5,180 nucleotides of DNA from Pseudomonadota bacterium (lineage in GTDB: Bacteria > Pseudomonadota > Gammaproteobacteria > Acidiferrobacterales > Acidiferrobacteraceae): the NCBI GenBank assembly GCA_021795255.1, contig JAJYPQ010000328.1:1-5180 (forward strand), written 5' to 3'. The notes beneath the pieces were generated by a model, which was not told where the DNA came from, did not search any database, and was given only the letters and a program-made list of their open reading frames with translations. The stretch's first letter is position 1; the number at the start of each line of letters is the position of its first letter. Of this stretch, positions 1 through 5,180 are shown piece after piece. Position numbers and translations under genes: made by a program.

Positions 1-193
1 CGCAGGGGCCGGCCTCATAGCAAAAGGACAGGACTTCCCCCTGGGGGCTTAGCTTCTTCACGAGTTTGGCCACCGCCTCCGGGGTGTTGGCGATCTCCCC
101 GTAATAGCGGGGCTTATTTTGGCCCGCCTCGGCAATGGCCACGGCGATCGTATCTTTATGTGTATCTAGCCCTATATACTTGGCTTCACTTCG
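1..193 (-). pseudogene. IS110-family transposase, N-terminal part, start disrupted
   Basis: Read on the minus strand, this encodes KYIGLDTHKDTIAVAIAEAG near the start and CYEAGPC near the window edge. These match the DEDD RuvC-like domain of IS110-family (Piv/MooV-type) transposases: the D of GLD and the E of YEAGP are the first two catalytic acidic residues of the family. The rest of the gene lies beyond position 1, so truncation there is only the window edge. The start is odd. The obvious ATG at 197-195 is one base out of register with the coding frame and reaches a TGA after three codons, and the coding frame itself meets a TGA at 196-194. No ATG, GTG or TTG lies between that stop and the conserved KYIGLD. 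A one-base insertion in the first codons would explain this, so I call it a likely pseudogene. A sequencing error or a non-standard start codon is the alternative. Confidence 0.85.
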
Positions 194-196
194 TCA

Positions 197-284
197 TGAC
201 CTGCCCCCTCAATTGTGGCTCTGAGTTGATGGTTGCTTGCTCGACCTTAAGCTTAATCCACGTCGCTTGAGGCCGGGCAGGTCA
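197..284. repeat. 10-bp perfect inverted repeat in the IS110 upstream region
   Basis: TGACCTGCCC at 197-206 is the exact reverse complement of GGGCAGGTCA at 275-284, with 68 bases between. The left arm begins at the out-of-frame ATG of the IS110 gene. Inside the interval is a second palindrome, TTAAGCTTAA, at 247-256. In the IS110 group proper, the non-coding end upstream of the transposase carries the bridge RNA gene, so this segment is where such an RNA end would lie. The same 138-bp gap must also hold the promoter of the DUF5343 gene on the other strand. I could not identify a convincing -35/-10 pair on either strand, nor the outer boundary of the element. Confidence 0.5.
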
Positions 285-335
285 ATACATGATGTCTACA
301 CAAGCAGAAAAGTCTCACGGGGAGGATAACCAAAA

Positions 336-959
336 ATGGCTGATTTCATTTACACGACTGTCCCAGGGAAAATAAAGCAGCTACTTCAAAAAATCCGTGA
401 AGTTAGCGTACCACCAAAAGCCACCACCCAATGGCTTAAAGCCGTCGGCTTTAAATCAAGTAACGATGTATCGTTACTTGGCGTCCTGAAGTTTATCGGT
501 TTTATTGACTCAAGCGGTGTCCCCAGTTCGAAGTGGGCGCACTACCGAGGCGCAAACCACAAGGTTGTGCTTGGAGAGGCGCTTCGCGAGGGTTACGCAG
601 ACCTATTCGCTGTCTACTCAGACGCAAACCAACGAAGCCAAAGTGATATCGATCATGTCTTCAGCACGAGTTCATCTGGTGGAAAACAAGTCATCGCAAA
701 GACAGTAAGCACCTTCAAAGCGCTTGCTGAACAGGCGGAATTTTCTCCAGTGAACGAACAGACCGACCTTCGCGTGGCCTCTGGCCCCCTCCATACACCG
801 GCAGTTCAGCCACCAACCGGGGCTGGCCGCAGTTCGTTTGGGCCTGCATTGCATATCGATGTTCAGATTCATATATCGCCAGAGGCTTCAGCGGACCAAA
901 TAGATCAAATCTTCGCAAGCATGTCGAAGCATCTTTATGGTTCAACAGATTCTGAGTAA
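336..959 (+). CDS. DUF5343 domain protein, possible defence-module partner
   Basis: This 207-residue protein is recognised as a DUF5343 protein from its opening (MADFIYTTVPGKIKQLLQKI), the WLKAVGFKSSND and LKFIGFIDSSG motifs (about 33-61) and the GKQVIAKTVSTFKAL segment (116-130). Residues about 1-135 form the conserved region, probably a winged-helix-like fold. Residues 136-168 are a low-complexity linker rich in P, S and G. Residues 172-201 (LHIDVQIHISPEASADQIDQ and following) form a separate conserved tail. The start is supported by a strong ribosome binding site, GGGGAGG at 319-325, ten bases upstream. The stop overlaps the next ATG (TAATG), so the two proteins are probably made together. 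There is no signal peptide or membrane segment. The biochemical role is unknown. Codons are visibly more A/T-rich than in the toxin-antitoxin genes downstream, consistent with separate acquisition. Confidence 0.85.
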   Translation: MADFIYTTVPGKIKQLLQKIREVSVPPKATTQWLKAVGFKSSNDVSLLGVLKFIGFIDSSGVPSSKWAHYRGANHKVVLGEALREGYADLFAVYSDANQRSQSDIDHVFSTSSSGGKQVIAKTVSTFKALAEQAEFSPVNEQTDLRVASGPLHTPAVQPPTGAGRSSFGPALHIDVQIHISPEASADQIDQIFASMSKHLYGSTDSE

Positions 960-1471
960 TGGCAGACGCACGAAACATATTCTTGGTTGCGAAAGCGATC
1001 CAAGCGGATGTCGCAAAAGAGCTGGGGCCGCCGGAAGAAGGGCTGCGCTCCTCCACGCAATGTGTGATTCCGCTATCTGTCGTCCGTGGGACACGCGGAT
1101 ATATCGAACGCGTAGCCAACCAAATTAATGGGGCTTACGAAAATGGTTGGTATGACGCATGCGCAGTTATGATTCGTCGTGTTCTTGAAACGTTGATTAT
1201 CGAGGCCTACGAACATCACGGCCTTGCGACGAACATAAAAAACGGGGCGGGCGACTTTTTCTATCTAAGGGACCTTATCGACAAATGCCTTCAAGAAACT
1301 ACTTGGAACCTGAGCCGTAATTGTAAACAGGCAATGCCGAAATTTAAGGACATTGGCGACAAGTCGGCACATAATCGAAGATACAACGCCCATAGGGGCG
1401 ATATCGATCTACTCCTGTTGGATATTAGATTGGTCGTGCAGGAGTTTGTTTACCTTGCGGGACTCAAGTAA
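959..1471 (+). CDS. DUF4145/HEPN-like protein coupled to DUF5343
   Basis: A 170-residue mainly helical protein. The core, about residues 58-168, holds WYDACAVMIRRVLETLIIEA (64-83), FYLRDLIDKCL (101-111) and GDKSAHNRRYNAH (133-145). This pattern matches DUF4145-type proteins, which are grouped with the HEPN superfamily of RNases and RNA-binding helical domains. R140 and H145 form an R-x4-H spacing like the HEPN RNase motif, but I cannot confirm these align with catalytic positions, so RNase activity is only a possibility. The ATG shares one base with the upstream TAA. The nearby upstream sequence has only a weak GAG-type ribosome binding site, so initiation probably depends on re-initiation from the DUF5343 gene. 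The conserved pairing suggests one functional unit, perhaps anti-phage, but nothing in the window proves it. Confidence 0.75.
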   Translation: MADARNIFLVAKAIQADVAKELGPPEEGLRSSTQCVIPLSVVRGTRGYIERVANQINGAYENGWYDACAVMIRRVLETLIIEAYEHHGLATNIKNGAGDFFYLRDLIDKCLQETTWNLSRNCKQAMPKFKDIGDKSAHNRRYNAHRGDIDLLLLDIRLVVQEFVYLAGLK

Positions 1472-1474
1472 GCC

Positions 1475-1511
1475 GCCCAGCAAGGCGCTCCAGCCGGACG
1501 TCGGCGCTTGG
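1475..1511 (+). other. attC-like half site after the DUF5343/DUF4145 pair
   Basis: Three bases after the stop codon is GCCCAGC (1475-1481), one base off the integron R'' consensus RYYYAAC. CAAGGCGC at 1481-1488 follows, and it pairs with GCGCTTG at 1504-1510 in a seven-bp stem with one extrahelical G (1485). An unpaired base in that position is a hallmark of integron attC stems. The expected closing R' box (GTTRRRY) is absent: TAGTAAT stands there, and the tRNA-linked repeat begins within a few bases. It may be a cassette recombination site cut by a later integration, or a chance hairpin. Confidence 0.35.
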
Positions 1512-1516
1512 TAGTA

Positions 1517-1740
1517 ATGGAATTGGAATCCAAAATAACCGTGCGCATATTGCGCGGGCTATTTCGTAGTTAGTCGGCGCCATGCGGCGTCGCACGTAAA
1601 TCTGCGCTATCGATCAGTAGGTTAAGTTCGTCCAATTTATGACATTTTACCCCGACGCACGCCGGCTACCCTCGCCATCGCATGCCAAGTTGTCACACTC
1701 TTGGCCATTCTCGTGGTGGGGAAAAGCGAGCGCTGCGCAA
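1517..1740. repeat. Attachment-site repeat, copy A (no tRNA 3' end)
   Basis: This aligns without large gaps to copies B and C. The anticodon-arm core, TGGAATTGGAATCCA at 1518-1532, replaces the CGG centre of B and C by TGG. A 30-nt imperfect hairpin follows at 1534-1563 (GCGC/GCGC inner stem, AATA/TATT outer stem). Then come TTTATGACAT near 1636-1644 and TTGTCACA at 1690-1697. GGCCATTCTCGTG and GAGCGCTGCGC close the repeat. Unlike B and C, its left flank is not tRNA sequence but the attC-like half site, so this is a different or degenerate junction. No protein is supported here; short ORFs crossing it have no recognisable content. Confidence 0.75.
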
Positions 1741-1951
1741 TCTTTCGGGGGCGTCGATTAGTAATGGCCCGCCCCTAAGCATGTGCGTCGGATCCCTCCC
1801 CACGGACCCAACGCTACGGCATCCCATTTCTTGGGTTTTCGAGGCCTGCGGGCTGAGTGCGACGCTCGCCGTCCTCGCCCGTTCAGTGACTGGGTTAGAC
1901 GGGTAACGGTTGCCTCTGGTCGCCTCCGTTGCGGTGAACGAAGGCTTTTCC
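1741..1951. other. Non-coding spacer between repeat A and higBA
   Basis: About 210 bases with no supported gene. Short ORFs on both strands overlap one another and show only low-complexity, arginine-rich translations typical of GC-rich non-coding DNA. I see no recognisable RNA gene or terminator. Confidence 0.5.
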
Positions 1952-1981
1952 TAGACAACATATGCCACTAAGTGGCATGAT
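1952..1981 (+). promoter_or_regulatory. higBA promoter with palindromic operator
   Basis: ATGCCACT (1962-1969) and AGTGGCAT (1971-1978) form a perfect 8-bp dyad around a central A, ending eleven bases before the toxin ATG. A candidate promoter encloses it: TAGACA at 1952-1957 (five of six to TTGACA), an 18-base spacer and CATGAT at 1976-1981 (four of six to TATAAT). The dyad therefore sits in the spacer, the usual place for antitoxin autorepression. The predicted transcript would begin at or near the toxin start codon. The dyad is seen directly; the promoter and repressor assignments are inferred. Confidence 0.6.
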
Positions 1982-1988
1982 ATGACTC

Positions 1989-2372
1989 ATGAACAGGGTG
2001 TTCAAAACCCGTCACTTCAGTCGCTGGGCGCGTAAGGTTGGGGTATCTGACCGGGCGCTGTGCCAAGCGGTGGAAGAGATGATTCGAGGGCTGATCGACG
2101 CTGATTTGGGCGGCAGTATTGTCAAGAAGCGGATCGGGCTTGCTGGCCGAGGCAAGCGTGGCGGAGCGCGAACACTCATCGCGACGGACAAGGGCGACCG
2201 GTGGTTCTTCGTCTTTGGCTTTGAGAAGAATGAGCGCGCGAATATTGATTCGGAAGAACTCGAGGCCCTTCAAGATCTTGCGGCTGATTTGCTGGTTAGA
2301 ACGGCTCGGCAGCTCAGTGAAGCGGCCGCAGACGGCTCGCTACAGGAGATTTGTTATGACCACCAAACCTAA
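1989..2372 (+). CDS. higB: HigB/RelE-family toxin (COG4737 type)
   Basis: This 127-residue protein matches the RelE-superfamily toxins of the COG4737/PF06296 group, which usually precede their HTH antitoxin. Diagnostic segments are FKTRHFSRWARKVGVSD (5-21), the basic loop GRGKRGGAR (53-61) and RWFFVFGFEKNERANI (71-86), followed by a helical tail. Family members act as translation-dependent mRNA interferases or growth inhibitors in the cytoplasm; this one's target is not known. The ATG at 1989 has no ribosome binding site just upstream and lies close to the predicted transcription start, so translation may be leaderless. The toxin gene precedes and overlaps the antitoxin by 17 bases. The ORF looks complete, with no frameshift. 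The symbol reflects family and gene order; many annotations would say only RelE/ParE-family toxin. Confidence 0.85.
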   Translation: MNRVFKTRHFSRWARKVGVSDRALCQAVEEMIRGLIDADLGGSIVKKRIGLAGRGKRGGARTLIATDKGDRWFFVFGFEKNERANIDSEELEALQDLAADLLVRTARQLSEAAADGSLQEICYDHQT

Positions 2373-2679
2373 GGCGCGAAGCCGAATTTTCAAGGCCGTT
2401 CATGAGACGGCAAGTGACCTCCATCGTCTCGGATTCATCGACAAGCGCGCGATGCGGAAATATGACATCCTGTGTAGGGAGCCTATTCCAGAATACGACG
2501 CGGAAAGGATTCGTGCGCTGCGGAAGACTCTTCATGTGAGCCAAGCCGTGCTGGCCGCTGCGCTGAATACGAGCGTGTCGACTGTGCGTAAGTGGGAAGT
2601 CGGTGACAAGAAGCCGAGCGGCCCCTCACTGAAGCTTCTCAGCTTGATTGAGCGCAAAGGGCCCGAGGCGGTCTGCTAG
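2356..2679 (+). CDS. higA: HigA-like XRE-family antitoxin (COG2944 type)
   Basis: A 107-residue cytoplasmic DNA-binding antitoxin. The N-terminal part (1-45, helical, basic) probably contacts the toxin. Residues about 47-100 form an XRE/Cro-type helix-turn-helix, with the recognition region around SQAVLAAALNTSVSTVRKWE (62-81). This order and length match the COG2944 partners of COG4737 toxins. The start at 2356 is chosen because CAGGAG at 2343-2348 is correctly spaced as a ribosome binding site and MTTKPKARSR begins family-like sequence; the open frame extends upstream only as a shadow of the toxin. It probably neutralises HigB by direct binding and represses the pair through the palindrome at 1962-1978. 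Confidence 0.85.
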   Translation: MTTKPKARSRIFKAVHETASDLHRLGFIDKRAMRKYDILCREPIPEYDAERIRALRKTLHVSQAVLAAALNTSVSTVRKWEVGDKKPSGPSLKLLSLIERKGPEAVC

Positions 2680-2753
2680 CCCATAGGAAAGGGCGATTGG
2701 CGCATTTTCAGCTCTTTTCCGCAATATGATGACAAAGGGTCTTCGTTTACAAT

Positions 2754-2933
2754 ATGAGCAGCTGGTATCGCAGCTTTGCCGGTGTGCAGGATGCGGCCGG
2801 AGCGGTCGCTCTCGACGAGATAAAATTCGAGAGCTGGACGCTGAGTATCTCGTGCTATGTCCTGCCGCCGCTACAAGAAGGCATATCACCGCTTCCAGAA
2901 GCCATCACCGTATTTGAGCGAGCGCTGACTTAA
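2754..2933 (+). CDS. Hypothetical 59-residue protein
   Basis: I do not recognise this ORF. It encodes 59 residues beginning MSSWYRSFAG, with a mixed acidic/hydrophobic composition (DEIKFESWTL, then a proline-rich LPPLQEGISPLPEA). This looks more protein-like than the surrounding shadows. There is no signal peptide or clear motif. A possible ribosome binding site, AAAGGG at 2734-2739, is 14 bases away and poorly spaced. Its TAA overlaps the ATG of the next ORF (TAATG). Past that stop, the same frame stays open for 19 codons (HEVAREIKQPMTEADWIK) before a second stop, so this could equally be a piece of a larger broken gene. Confidence 0.35.
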   Translation: MSSWYRSFAGVQDAAGAVALDEIKFESWTLSISCYVLPPLQEGISPLPEAITVFERALT

Positions 2934-3340
2934 TGCCACGAGGTCGCGAGGGAGATCAAGCAACCGATGACGGAAGCGGATTGGATCAAATGACCCTAAT
3001 CACCTCAGTCAAGCGGACACTGATTTCCATCAGCCACGCCACGCCGGAGGCCAACGATTTCACGCTCTGGTTGGGTGCTCGACTGGCACCCCGGCCGCGC
3101 CACCGAAACCGAAGCGATTCCACGGTACAGTCCGACTGGATCCCGCGCGCCGGGCGTGACGCGAGCCGTATCGCCGATGAGGTCATCGCGCATCTCGTGG
3201 GTCTGGTCGGAGCGAGGGTCACGGTGACGTTAGAAATTGAAGCGGAGATGTCGGACGGCGCGCCAGACCATGTTGTGCGCACGGTAACCGAGAATGGCCG
3301 AACATTGAAATTTACGAGCCAGGGGTTCGAGAAAGAGTAA
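2933..3340 (+). pseudogene. C-terminal remnant of a DUF499-type ATPase, frameshifted
   Basis: The last ~62 residues (GRDASRIADEVIAHLVGLVG onward, ending RTLKFTSQGFEKE) resemble the extreme C-terminus of large DUF499/Swt1-like AAA ATPases found with methyltransferase-helicase defence systems. This is recognition from memory, not a search. Just upstream, the matching sequence continues in another frame: 3103-3150 reads PPKPKRFHGTVRLDPAR. The frame changes within the GC tract CGCGCGC at 3144-3150; two missing bases there would restore one continuous reading. The open frame before about 3090 shows no similarity I recognise, and the ATPase domain itself is absent. I read this as a decayed tail of a gene that once extended further left. 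The alternative is a small unrelated hypothetical gene using the ATG at 2933. Confidence 0.5.
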
Positions 3341-3568
3341 GAGCCCACAGGGTGCTGCGGCTAGCGCTCATTTAAGGGCCCCTGTTGGTAGGGGTCTTGG
3401 GGGCCTTGGGCACCCGGTGGGCACACGCCATAATCTGGGCAATTGGGCGGTTTCGGACCAACGCTCAGGAGCGTGGGTCTCGCGAGTGGCGATTGACGAG
3501 CGCTGGCCGATGAGGTCCAAGGTTGATGGTTGGGCTAAAGAAAATACATCGTTGGAATTTCAGGGAGT
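3341..3568. other. Non-coding spacer left of repeat B
   Basis: No supported gene. A hairpin with stem CCCCT (3379-3383) and AGGGG (3390-3394), extended by one G-T and one G-C pair, lies 40 bases after the DUF499 remnant. It lacks a T-run, so it is at best a weak terminator. The last bases (TTTCAGGGAGTTGG, 3558-3571) match the same place before copy C (TTTCAGCGGGTTGG), so the repeat extends a little left of the tRNA fragment. Confidence 0.4.
3412..3428. repeat. 17-bp motif ACCCRGTGGGCACACGC, first copy
   Basis: ACCCGGTGGGCACACGC here matches 4628-4644 at 16 of 17 positions. Both copies lie left of a tRNA 3' fragment, at 141 and 58 bases respectively. Because they sit on the side of the core opposite the TTGTRACA motifs, they could be second-arm integrase or accessory-factor sites. 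This role is inferred from position only. Confidence 0.5.
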
Positions 3569-3618
3569 TGGTGCGCCCTAGAGGATTCGAACCTCTGACC
3601 TTTGGAATCGGAATGCAA
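3569..3618 (-). repeat. tRNA-Arg(CCG) 3'-half fragment, attachment-site core B
   Basis: On the minus strand this reads as the 3' part of a class I tRNA: CCA at 3571-3569, discriminator A, acceptor strand AGGGCGC (3579-3573), a perfect five-bp T stem with loop TTCGAAT (3580-3596), variable loop AGGTC, then an anticodon arm with loop TTCCGAT and anticodon CCG (3611-3609). Its 5' stem strand differs from perfect pairing by one base. There is no D arm or 5' acceptor strand: sequence beyond 3618 is repeat-specific. This is a displaced tRNA end as left by an integrative element, not a functional tRNA. The plus-strand core TTGGAATCGGAATGCAA is an imperfect palindrome, as expected for a tyrosine recombinase crossover site. 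Confidence 0.8.
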
Positions 3619-3830
3619 AATAACCGGGCGTACATTGCGCGGGCTATTGTGTAGTTATTCGGCGTCATGCGGCGTCGCACGCACATTCTCGTTGTCCTTC
3701 AGCACGTTAGCTTCGTCCAATTTGTGACATCTTAGCCCGATCGAGGCCGACTTCGTTGGGCATCGGGTCCTCATCTGTAACACCGTGGGGCCATTCTCGT
3801 CACGGGAAAAGCGAGCGCTGCACGGCGGTT
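3604..3830. repeat. Attachment-site repeat, copy B
   Basis: This is the element-side half of the junction that begins in the tRNA fragment. Over the first 85 positions it differs from copy C (4738-4822) at six sites. It holds the 30-nt hairpin (3619-3648), an alternative perfect pairing of AATAAC (3619-3624) with GTTATT (3654-3659), TTTGTGACAT at 3721-3730, TCTGTAACA at 3774-3782 and the terminal block GCGAGCGCTGCACGGCGGTT. Motif distances from the anticodon centre are nearly the same in all three copies (about 111-115 and 164-169 bases). No coding potential is seen on either strand. Confidence 0.8.
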
Positions 3831-3953
3831 TCAATGTACCGTTCAGCCGCACGGGCGTTCCAAGCCGAACCATGTTTAACCGACGGCAATCATGTCGGTT
3901 CTCCGGAGGCGGGCGGAAGGATCCCGGGGAACCGTCCGGCACGTCCTTGCCCC
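3831..3953. other. Spacer between repeat B and brnTA promoter
   Basis: No gene, RNA or terminator is recognised. A modest inverted repeat, CCGACGGCAATCATGTCGG (3890-3908), is present without a T-run. Confidence 0.3.
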
Positions 3954-3989
3954 TTGTATGGGTGCACATATGTGCATACAATTATGCAC
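3954..3989 (+). promoter_or_regulatory. brnTA promoter with three overlapping dyads
   Basis: TTGTAT (3954-3959), a 17-base spacer and TACAAT (3977-3982, five of six to TATAAT) form a credible sigma-70 promoter whose start would fall at about 3989-3990. Three dyads overlap it: TTGTATG/CATACAA (3954-3960, 3975-3981), the perfect palindrome TGCACATATGTGCA (3963-3976) and GTGCAT/ATGCAC (3972-3977, 3984-3989). Autorepression by BrnA through palindromes over its own promoter is established for this family; these sites are the obvious candidates here. Confidence 0.7.
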
Positions 3990-4259
3990 ATGCGTTTCGA
4001 ATGGGACGAAGCCAAGCGCGCCACGAATTTGGCCAAGCACGGCGTAGATTTCGCGGATGCGGTCGGCGTTTTCTATGACGAGTGCGCGCTGACCAGGGAA
4101 GACGCCGATGCCGAAGGCGAGCAGCGCTTCGTTACGCTCGGGATGGGTTTTGTCGGCCGTCTGCTGGTCGTGGTGTACACAGAACGAAAGAGCGATACGA
4201 TTCGGATCATCTCCGCTCGCAAGGCGAGTCGAGGCGAACGCGAAGCTTACGAGGGTTAG
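3990..4259 (+). CDS. brnT: BrnT-family ribonuclease toxin
   Basis: This 89-residue protein has the BrnT (PF04365) layout. It opens with MRFEWDEAKRATNLAKHGVD, has the FADA segment (21-24) and an acidic loop (EDADAEGEQRF, 37-47), then hydrophobic strands LLVVVYTER (58-66). It ends with the conserved IRIISARKASRGEREAYE (71-88). BrnT toxins have a RelE-like fold and inhibit translation by RNA cleavage; the partner is BrnA. The start at 3990 is preferred over the in-frame ATG at 3984 because family members begin directly at this MxFEWD-like motif and the predicted transcript starts about here, implying a leaderless message; no ribosome binding site precedes either ATG. The open frame extends further upstream to 3756, but that part is repeat and promoter DNA. 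The brnA gene follows after three bases. Confidence 0.92.
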   Translation: MRFEWDEAKRATNLAKHGVDFADAVGVFYDECALTREDADAEGEQRFVTLGMGFVGRLLVVVYTERKSDTIRIISARKASRGEREAYEG

Positions 4260-4262
4260 GGT

Positions 4263-4520
4263 ATGCGCAACAATTATGATTTCAGTAAGGCCAAGCGGGG
4301 CGCGGTCGTGGCCGAGTCCGGCAAGACCCGTATCACCATCCGTCTCGACAATGAGGTGCTTGAGTGGTTTCGTGCGCAAACACGCGACGGGGGCAACTAC
4401 CAGACACTCATCAACGACGCGTTGCGTTCCCACATGGATGAGCACTGCGGTGCGCTGGAGCGGACACTGCGCCGGGTCATTCGGGAGGAACTGAAGGAGC
4501 GGACTCCTAAAGTCGGCTAA
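4263..4520 (+). CDS. brnA: BrnA-family antitoxin (ribbon-helix-helix)
   Basis: An 85-residue antitoxin. The N-terminal MRNNYDFSKAKRGAVVAESG leads into a ribbon-helix-helix domain: strand TRITIRLD (22-29), helix NEVLEWFRAQ (30-39), then the GGNYQTLINDALRSHM helix (43-58) typical of BrnA/CopG-like proteins. The charged C-terminal tail (LERTLRRVIREELKER, 65-80) is long for the family. The start is supported by GAGGG at 4251-4255, inside the end of brnT and seven bases upstream, so translation is coupled. It should neutralise BrnT and, as a complex, repress the promoter at 3954-3989. Confidence 0.92.
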   Translation: MRNNYDFSKAKRGAVVAESGKTRITIRLDNEVLEWFRAQTRDGGNYQTLINDALRSHMDEHCGALERTLRRVIREELKERTPKVG

Positions 4521-4701
4521 TCGCGTCGCGCAGGGATAACCGGGTCTGGAGGTGCGGATCAGAGTAGACGCGCCTCGGCCAACACTCAAAAGAAGCGTCC
4601 GTTGTCTGGATCGTCTGCATGTTGTGTACCCAGTGGGCACACGCTGATCGCAGCTTAGGTCACCGCCGAAAGGATAAGAACTTAGTGACATTTCAGCGGG
4701 T
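4521..4701. other. Non-coding spacer between brnA and core C
   Basis: There is no gene and no clear terminator after brnA. It contains the second copy of the 17-bp motif (4628-4644) and, next to the tRNA fragment, TTAGTGACATTT (4682-4693), which resembles the TTTGTGACATTT on the other side of the core. This may be an arm-type site on the left flank. Confidence 0.4.
4628..4644. repeat. 17-bp motif ACCCRGTGGGCACACGC, second copy
   Basis: ACCCAGTGGGCACACGC differs from the first copy (3412-3428) at one position. It lies 58 bases left of the tRNA CCA end, against 141 for the first copy, so about 80 bases differ in length between the two left flanks. Confidence 0.5.
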
Positions 4702-4752
4702 TGGCGCGCCCTAGAGGATTCGAACCTCTGACCTTGTGGAATCGGAATGCAA
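4702..4752 (-). repeat. tRNA-Arg(CCG) 3'-half fragment, attachment-site core C
   Basis: The parts are the same as in core B: CCA (4704-4702), acceptor strand (4712-4706), identical T arm (4713-4729), then variable loop and anticodon arm with CCG at 4745-4743. It differs from B in having discriminator G instead of A and one extra base between the variable loop and anticodon stem. The extra base would spoil a real tRNA, which supports the fragment reading. The tRNA 5' half is absent; repeat sequence takes over after 4752. Confidence 0.8.
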
Positions 4753-4963
4753 AATAACTGCGCGTATATTGCGCGGGCTATTGTGTAGTTATTCGGCGTC
4801 ATGCGGCGCAGCACGTACATTCCCCTTGTGGTTCAGTAGGTTAGGTTCGCCCCATTTGTGACATTTTACCCCGATACAGGCCGACCTTACCTGGCGCCGT
4901 GCTCGACCTTGTAACAACCTGGGCCATTCCTATTGCCGGAAAACTGAGCGTTGCACGACGGTT
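4738..4963. repeat. Attachment-site repeat, copy C
   Basis: Closest to copy B. The hairpin is at 4753-4782, AATAAC (4753-4758) pairs with GTTATT (4788-4793), TTTGTGACAT is at 4855-4864 and TTGTAACA at 4909-4916. The block from GGGCCATTC to GCACGACGGTT closes it. No downstream cargo gene is visible before the window ends. Confidence 0.8.
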
Positions 4964-5061
4964 GCCTGCGCGGGGCCTGCATCGGCGACAGCTTTCTGTA
5001 GCGCTTGGCCACGCCATTGCAGGTTAGAGCCAGGGCTGTCATCAAGATTACGGGGGCCGCG
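4964..5061. other. Spacer between repeat C and partial repeat D
   Basis: About 100 bases with no recognisable gene or repeat. ORFs on the minus strand here are short and have no family features. Confidence 0.3.
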
Positions 5062-5131
5062 CCTCGCCATCGAGCGCGACTTTGTAACAGCTTGGGCCAT
5101 TCTCGTGAGAACAGAAAGTGAGTGCTGCACG
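5062..5131. repeat. Partial attachment-site repeat, copy D
   Basis: This carries only the distal part of the repeat: CCTCGCCATCG (as in copy A at 1670-1680), TTGTAACA at 5082-5089, GGGCCATTCTCGTGA and GTGCTGCACG. The core, tRNA fragment and hairpin are missing. It lies 173 bases after the equivalent point of copy C and shares the CTCGCCATCG and TCTCGTG details with A rather than C. It therefore looks like a remnant of another unit, not a simple duplication of C. The last 49 bases of the window hold nothing I recognise. Confidence 0.6.
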
Positions 5132-5180
5132 ATGATCGGCGCGCGTGATTGTAAGGTGATACGCACCGTCGGCAGGTGGT

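Follow-up and report, generated by a model that had tools for sequence, protein, structure and literature searches.

Chromosomal integrons hold arrays of small, mostly co-oriented toxin-antitoxin (TA) cassettes that share a site. Cis-mobilizable elements (CIMEs) are described as elements without integration and transfer genes that keep their att sites and lie in tandem at one target gene, being regarded as decayed integrative and conjugative elements or integrative and mobilizable elements (PMC5704250). Similarly, a report on Dehalococcoides presents several islands in tandem at one RNA gene, ssrA, some of them suggested to be cis-mobilizable and many carrying an integration module with serine recombinases (PMC3146451). 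In this work, we analyzed 5,180 nt from a Pseudomonadota bacterium of the family Acidiferrobacteraceae (contig JAJYPQ010000328.1, positions 1 to 5,180; assembly GCA_021795255.1), referred to as the window, which contains a tandem array of small TA-bearing units separated by junctions related to tRNA-Arg(CCG). Such units, many with one TA pair and no recombination enzyme, are lined up behind one tRNA-Arg gene in relatives of an acid-loving mine bacterium, as though this gene served as a port for exchangeable stability genes; their mode of movement is inferred.

The array is a real structure that has tRNA-Arg(CCG) as its anchor and many TA genes. Our best reading is that it works like the tandem accretion of CIMEs, as a variant of it, and the likeness to cis-mobilizable accretion drawn in an earlier reading of the window (the original prediction) is apt. 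Specifically, we favour, with a probability of roughly 0.6, small mobile units that have no integrase of their own, are arrayed from tRNA-Arg(CCG) and would be moved by a trans-acting tyrosine integrase. Compared with CIMEs, the likeness lies in tandem elements at one target gene, here without a match to the tyrosine integrase family PF00589 in three arrays; the differences are the unit size of 1-2 kb, one conserved sequence (the arm) found in 11 genomes, and that no same-arm autonomous relative was found among 57 genomes. With respect to the ssrA islands, the cargo here appears to consist mainly of TA genes, and three arrays yielded no integrase of the tyrosine type, the recombinase type that the search covered. 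The differences from integron TA cassettes are a tRNA docking site and no integron integrase over the cut-off. No comparable array turned up in the literature searched, which is not to claim that none is in print.

A repeat search of the window yielded a 181-nt direct repeat in three copies (1518-1698, 3603-3783 and 4737-4917; spacing 2085 and 1134), the second and third displaying 76% and 75% identity to the copy at 1518, together with a 46-nt repeat of 93% identity at 3557-3602 and 4690-4735. This self-match is far above chance, the best ungapped 181-nt match having 145 identities versus 74-80 in 10 mononucleotide shuffles. An iterated profile lengthened the arm to ~223 bp (1518-1740, 3603-3824 and 4737-4958) and added a partial fourth copy with an E-value of 1.1e-12. 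No intact tRNA was detected in the window by ARAGORN; positions 3568-3614 coincide exactly with the region of genome G006 that holds intact tRNA-Arg(CCG), from the 3' end of the tRNA up to and including the anticodon loop, and diverge from 3615. The sequence on the array strand is CTTTGGAATCGGAATCCAACG for the tRNA and CTTTGGAATCGGAATGCAAAATAAC for junction B; the divergence therefore falls just past the anticodon loop ATCGGAA. One additional G (4736) precedes the core at junction C, and Rfam returned a single match, under the gathering score, over the tRNA half and core. In comparisons between loci, arm-side homologies mostly begin at 3603 and tail-side homologies stop at 3618. The junction features are as follows:

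1518..1740, plus strand: junction A, core variant TGGAATTGGAATCCAA and arm, with no tRNA half (repeat and profile searches)
3407..3618, plus strand: tail of unit 1 with tRNA 3' half and core (similarity to the DNA downstream of intact tRNA-Arg(CCG) in G005, G006 and G003, at 81% for L039, 82% for L041 and 76% for L044)
3569..3602, minus strand: tRNA-Arg(CCG) 3' half, junction B (repeat search, ARAGORN, comparison with the G006 tRNA)
3603..3618, strand not assigned: core of junction B, TGGAATCGGAATGCAA (homology edges between loci)
3603..3824, plus strand: core and arm of junction B (profile search)
4702..4735, minus strand: tRNA-Arg(CCG) 3' half, junction C (repeat search, ARAGORN, comparison with the G006 tRNA)
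4737..4958, plus strand: core and arm of junction C (profile search, homology comparison)
5062..5132, plus strand: partial fourth arm (D), positions 153-223 (profile search)

Both whole units of the window carry a TA pair, consisting of RelE and a helix-turn-helix (HTH) protein in unit 1, and of BrnT and BrnA in unit 2, according to Pfam:

1989..2372, plus strand: RelE-type toxin, unit 1 (Pfam RelE, 2.6e-46)
2356..2679, plus strand: HTH protein, probable antitoxin, unit 1 (Pfam HTH_3, 2.8e-9)
3984..4259, plus strand: BrnT toxin, unit 2 (Pfam BrnT_toxin, 1.7e-29)
4263..4520, plus strand: BrnA antitoxin, unit 2 (Pfam BrnA_antitoxin, 1.3e-13)

No integrase was found among the 9 window open reading frames (ORFs) scanned with Pfam and NCBIfam, out of 40 listed with at least 50 aa. 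The original prediction had described this layout from the letters of the window, namely three homologous junctions and a partial fourth at this spacing, a TA pair and no integrase in each whole unit, and junctions B and C that start as the 3' half of tRNA-Arg(CCG) and switch past the anticodon arm; the repeat and profile searches, the Pfam assignments and the comparison with the G006 tRNA agree with it on all three counts.

The anchoring of the array was established in relatives. ARAGORN found tRNA-Arg(CCG) in 8/17 sequences of one set and in 10/12 of another, and three contigs carry both the arm and the intact tRNA (L039 of G005, L041 of G006 and L044 of G003). On all three, the 3' side of tRNA-Arg(CCG) is the one occupied by the array, with the tRNA at the array end and in the predicted polarity. 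In G006, two units directly precede the tRNA, one of ~1.23 kb between the arm at 10880 and the core at 12109, and one of ~1.55 kb between 12109 and the core inside the tRNA at 13658. Both ends of one G006 unit and of unit 2 of the window show a tRNA half and a core. Homologies between loci mostly begin, on the arm side, or stop, on the tail side, at the anticodon-loop core, and this break on both sides fits an exchange at the core. The marks of tRNA-targeted site-specific integration were found, i.e., a whole tRNA kept, displaced 3' halves, breaks at the core, and a pair of genomes (G005 and G009, below) of which one has an additional stretch with tRNA halves at its limits. Of the intact tRNA possibly adjoined by an integrase that had been anticipated beyond the window, the tRNA was supported, with its position and polarity, by these three contigs of relatives; the adjoining integrase was not, as none was found by PF00589 in the arrays of G003, G005 and G006. 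Furthermore, in the relatives tRNA-Arg(CCG) was not missing and the repeats were not scattered, and the arm was recovered in 11/57 genomes of the order.

Regarding its distribution, the arm was matched in 10/18 genomes of the family, G027 being the one genome of the order beyond these ten, and in 1/369 genomes drawn from the class, namely the centre genome, G001. When a pattern containing 21 fixed bases was searched against species genomes, the sole hit was the metagenome-assembled genome Proteobacteria DS4.bin33, in which a single contig matched twice. A model built on arm positions 1-144 and run on the 57 genomes under strict filters, with 56 candidates scored per genome, detected no arm below 1e-14 outside the known arrays, all 18 such matches lying in arrays. 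Below this threshold, G011 (C98; L136 ~1501-1556) has a match of 5.5e-8 to arm positions 4-59 that adjoins a gene resembling DAHP synthase, and G027 (C64; L148 ~1501-1700) has a divergent arm-like sequence (0.013) near the end of a contig other than that of its known arm; the remaining sub-threshold matches were weaker than these two. Regarding other replicons, the arm alone had zero matches in plasmids, and arm A gave chance-level pieces only. With the tRNA half plus arm as query, the best 20 of 62 plasmid rows span only query positions 23-79, the tRNA part, and the best 20 of 226 phage rows only positions 23-71, and three pattern scans of viral contigs were empty. These plasmid, phage and viral-contig searches speak against the arm having come from a plasmid or a phage.

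The alignment of 19 full arms displays conservation in blocks between variable stretches, which comprise the core; AATAAC...GGCTATT; TGTGACATTTTA; TTGTAACA..GGGCCATTC; and GAGCGCTGCA. None of 5000 column shuffles was as clustered, and from its sequence the arm looks like protein-binding DNA under selection, which may be bound by an integrase. Arms within one array share 65-79% identity in 7/9 pairs and 100% in 2/9, and arms between genomes average 73.5% over 162 pairs; among the 19 arms, window arm C is closest to one of G007 (95%), B to one of G002 (80%), and A to one of G001 (79%). These identities lend no support to local tandem duplication, the two 100% pairs excepted. A related possibility is that, following DNA uptake, arms or tRNA halves recombine homologously and thereby move cargo between arrays, with no site-specific recombinase involved, as repeats of ~50-223 bp could seed exchange and two arm pairs within a genome are identical (that of G001 reaches the end of a contig); still, the remaining within-genome pairs are poor substrates for exchange at 65-79%, and the edges fall at the 16-bp core, hence we consider this explanation very improbable.

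Movement of the units by site-specific integration is further suggested by comparisons between genomes. A MazEF unit adjoins the tRNA in G011 and G002, lies 11 kb into the array in G009, and is inverted in G001 (87.8%). Between G011 and G009 it is 90.8% identical over 511 bp, with 72.9% in the DNA beyond the tRNA, and between G011 and G002 it is 100% identical over 253 bp, including the 77-bp tRNA, with 71.9-73.7% beyond the tRNA. G005 and G009 share 93.5% identity up to the tRNA tail (L039 9553), and the similarity resumes at a second tRNA half (12721), so that G005 has ~3.2 kb more than G009 next to the tRNA, bounded by tRNA 3' halves; 49 bp of L040 (G009) match both sides of this stretch. 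From both comparisons, it follows that G005, G009 and G002 have three different sequences beside the same tRNA. Moreover, a HepT unit occurs in differing surroundings in G014, G016 (93%) and G006 (80%), as does a DUF4143 unit in G001, G009 (88%) and G002 (84%), and window positions 4737-5179 match L049 1702-1261 of G007 with 94% identity, next to a different left neighbour. Within the tRNA-proximal stretch of G005, an exact 119-bp tandem duplication was observed (L039 12448-12684).

The cargo was examined through 28 proteins outside the window, chosen from ORF lists for a TA-like or similar appearance. A Pfam family was assigned to 25 of them, the exceptions being L040:14155, L044:8526 and L048:10917. 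Together with those of the window, the families include RelE/HTH, BrnTA, PIN with Phd or FitA-like antitoxins, PemK/MazE and HepT with nucleotidyltransferase, as well as GNAT, AbiEi, AAA_14-DUF4143 and a Gp49/HI1420 pair; judging from these chosen ORFs, the recognisable array cargo would be mainly TA modules. By hand count, 25/28 TA-type modules run in the arm-to-tRNA direction, the exceptions being VapBC (G010), DUF4143 (G014) and the inverted MazEF (G001); the corresponding sign test (1.4e-5) is overstated because homologous modules were counted more than once. Small TA-rich cassettes, mostly co-oriented, would also be expected of a degenerate integron cassette array. Against this, 0/12 relatives exceeded the TIGR02249 cut-off for integron integrases, with weaker matches in all 12 (best 123.6 bits versus 265) and likewise in 14 control genomes, the site is tRNA-derived, and the predicted fold appears weak (-14.4 kcal/mol for the consensus of 144 positions, a part of the arm, by RNAalifold with RNA parameters, and compensatory change in 4/23 pairs). 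With no integron integrase over the cut-off in these 12 relatives, an integron identity is extremely unlikely.

The window also contains the following ORFs:

2..184, minus strand: IS110-type transposase, N-terminal part, truncated at the window edge (Pfam DEDD_Tnp_IS110 at E 0.0036, which does not reach the cut-off)
336..959, plus strand: DUF5343 protein, candidate defence gene, left of junction A (Pfam DUF5343, 4.6e-33; PADLOC PDC-M34A, 4.3e-40)
959..1471, plus strand: DUF4145 protein, left of junction A (Pfam DUF4145, 1.6e-5)
2933..3340, plus strand: 135-aa ORF, unit 1 (PADLOC HmaC, 2e-15, profile positions 879-940 of 941)

The DUF5343 gene, of the PADLOC candidate family PDC-M34A, followed by the DUF4145 gene, represents a possible defence pair carried as cargo (336-1471). 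The last 62 residues of the 135-aa ORF match the C-terminal end of HmaC, and 26 aa match the start of PADLOC Aga_TIR-PNTD1-PNTD2; it is perhaps a deletion remnant. Positions 159-298 are found again, at 88%, in L123 near the tRNA-Arg(CCG) of G008.

Matches to PF00589 were fully listed for 5 genomes and partially for 14 more. None lies in the arrays of G003, G005 and G006, which belong to the full lists. Three adjacent matches occur in the G009 array (L040 9436-11739), which we take to resemble a recombinase-in-trio element, and, among the matches listed, a sub-threshold one (2.1e-5) was noted in G012, on the contig that carries the array and ~20 kb away from it. Integrases of ~335-357 aa occur in three genomes, adjoining tRNA-Arg(CCG) itself in G016 and G035 and, at the end of a contig, the 3' half of this tRNA in G018. 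These elements share the tRNA and core with the arrays and differ from them in having their own integrase and in showing no 223-bp arm on the stretches read around it. They point to the strongest rival to small mobile units, in which integrase-bearing islands inserted serially at tRNA-Arg(CCG) and eroded to a junction plus an addictive TA module, having never been mobile as 1-2 kb pieces. Units of damaged appearance (the arm-less G005 stretch, the partial arm D and the HmaC-like end in window unit 1) and the many junctions with no clear tRNA half (see below) are in line with such erosion. Conversely, a tblastn search with the G016 integrase matched 3/29 sequences (L053, L116 and L119), all without the arm; the far end of the G035 element, the sole readable one, is a sequence other than the arm; the three fully listed arrays hold no PF00589 match; RelE/HTH cargo homology begins 9 bp (G006) and 11 bp (G027) past the arm end; and the small MazEF unit is common to divergent genomes. 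We therefore consider serial erosion of islands unlikely, although it is clearly more credible than the homologous exchange and integron explanations. At both ends of the G035 element (L116 6760-6950 and L117 2900-3330), TTACAGCA was seen by eye, and these repeats are possibly its arm-type sites.

A trans-acting donor is plausible, given that the L053-type tyrosine integrase family (L053 8463-9467) is abundant elsewhere in the genomes, with 15 matches in G005, 11 in G001 and 0 in G010 at E <= 1e-40, some of them partial. Several observations weigh against trans mobilization of small units. A clear tRNA half is present at 7/21 junctions and missing at the other 14, which the original prediction, overall partly supported, did not foresee. 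Neither an integrase tied to the arm, in the 57 genomes under the 144-position model and its filters, nor a circular form of a unit, in three viral-contig scans and a plasmid search, was found. The absence of integrases covers tyrosine recombinases only and is weaker for the 14 partly listed genomes, and many genomes of relatives are fragmented, which weakens the absence results. In addition, the identical stretch of G002 and G011 may be a co-assembly artefact, since its 253 bp lie at a contig start, a weakness of which the comparison between G009 and G011 is free; the 3.2-kb stretch of G005 has no arm, and both gain in G005 and loss in G009 are possible. As for the half-less junctions, they could correspond to units able to sit at internal cores only, or to decayed ends; AAA or GAA immediately precedes the core at 8 of these 14 (junctions in L008, L042, L043, L048 and L049).

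Mobilization of small units in trans is nonetheless preferred, because complete units of 1-2 kb exist, cargo abuts the arm, divergent genomes have unit types in common, and the three fully listed arrays show no integrase relic. According to the mechanism that we propose, a whole unit would consist of the core, the ~223-bp arm, cargo (mostly one TA module), a short tail (near ATTTCAATGGG), a tRNA 3' half, and a core. A circular unit would recombine with the tRNA through the 16-bp core, comprising the anticodon loop and a stem side, by means of a tyrosine integrase provided in trans by another element; the 3' half of the incoming unit would restore the tRNA, the old half would stay on the far side, and successive insertions would pile up behind the tRNA, with the TA modules making the units hard to lose. 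A further step, which we put forward tentatively and hold to be somewhat less probable than its opposite, is a cassette system distinct from integrons, with an anticodon-loop docking site, the 223-bp arm as recombination site, TA cargo, and a trans-acting integrase that would move single cassettes between species, possibly into internal junctions.

If these units are indeed mobilized in trans, TA modules would be able to spread as bare cassettes devoid of an integrase, using a tRNA gene as their platform, and bacteria without integrons would gain a comparable means of accumulating and exchanging stability or defence genes. The enzyme should then be traceable from the conserved arm blocks, and the arrays would provide a testable case for TA modules spreading alone, rather than as passengers of large elements.

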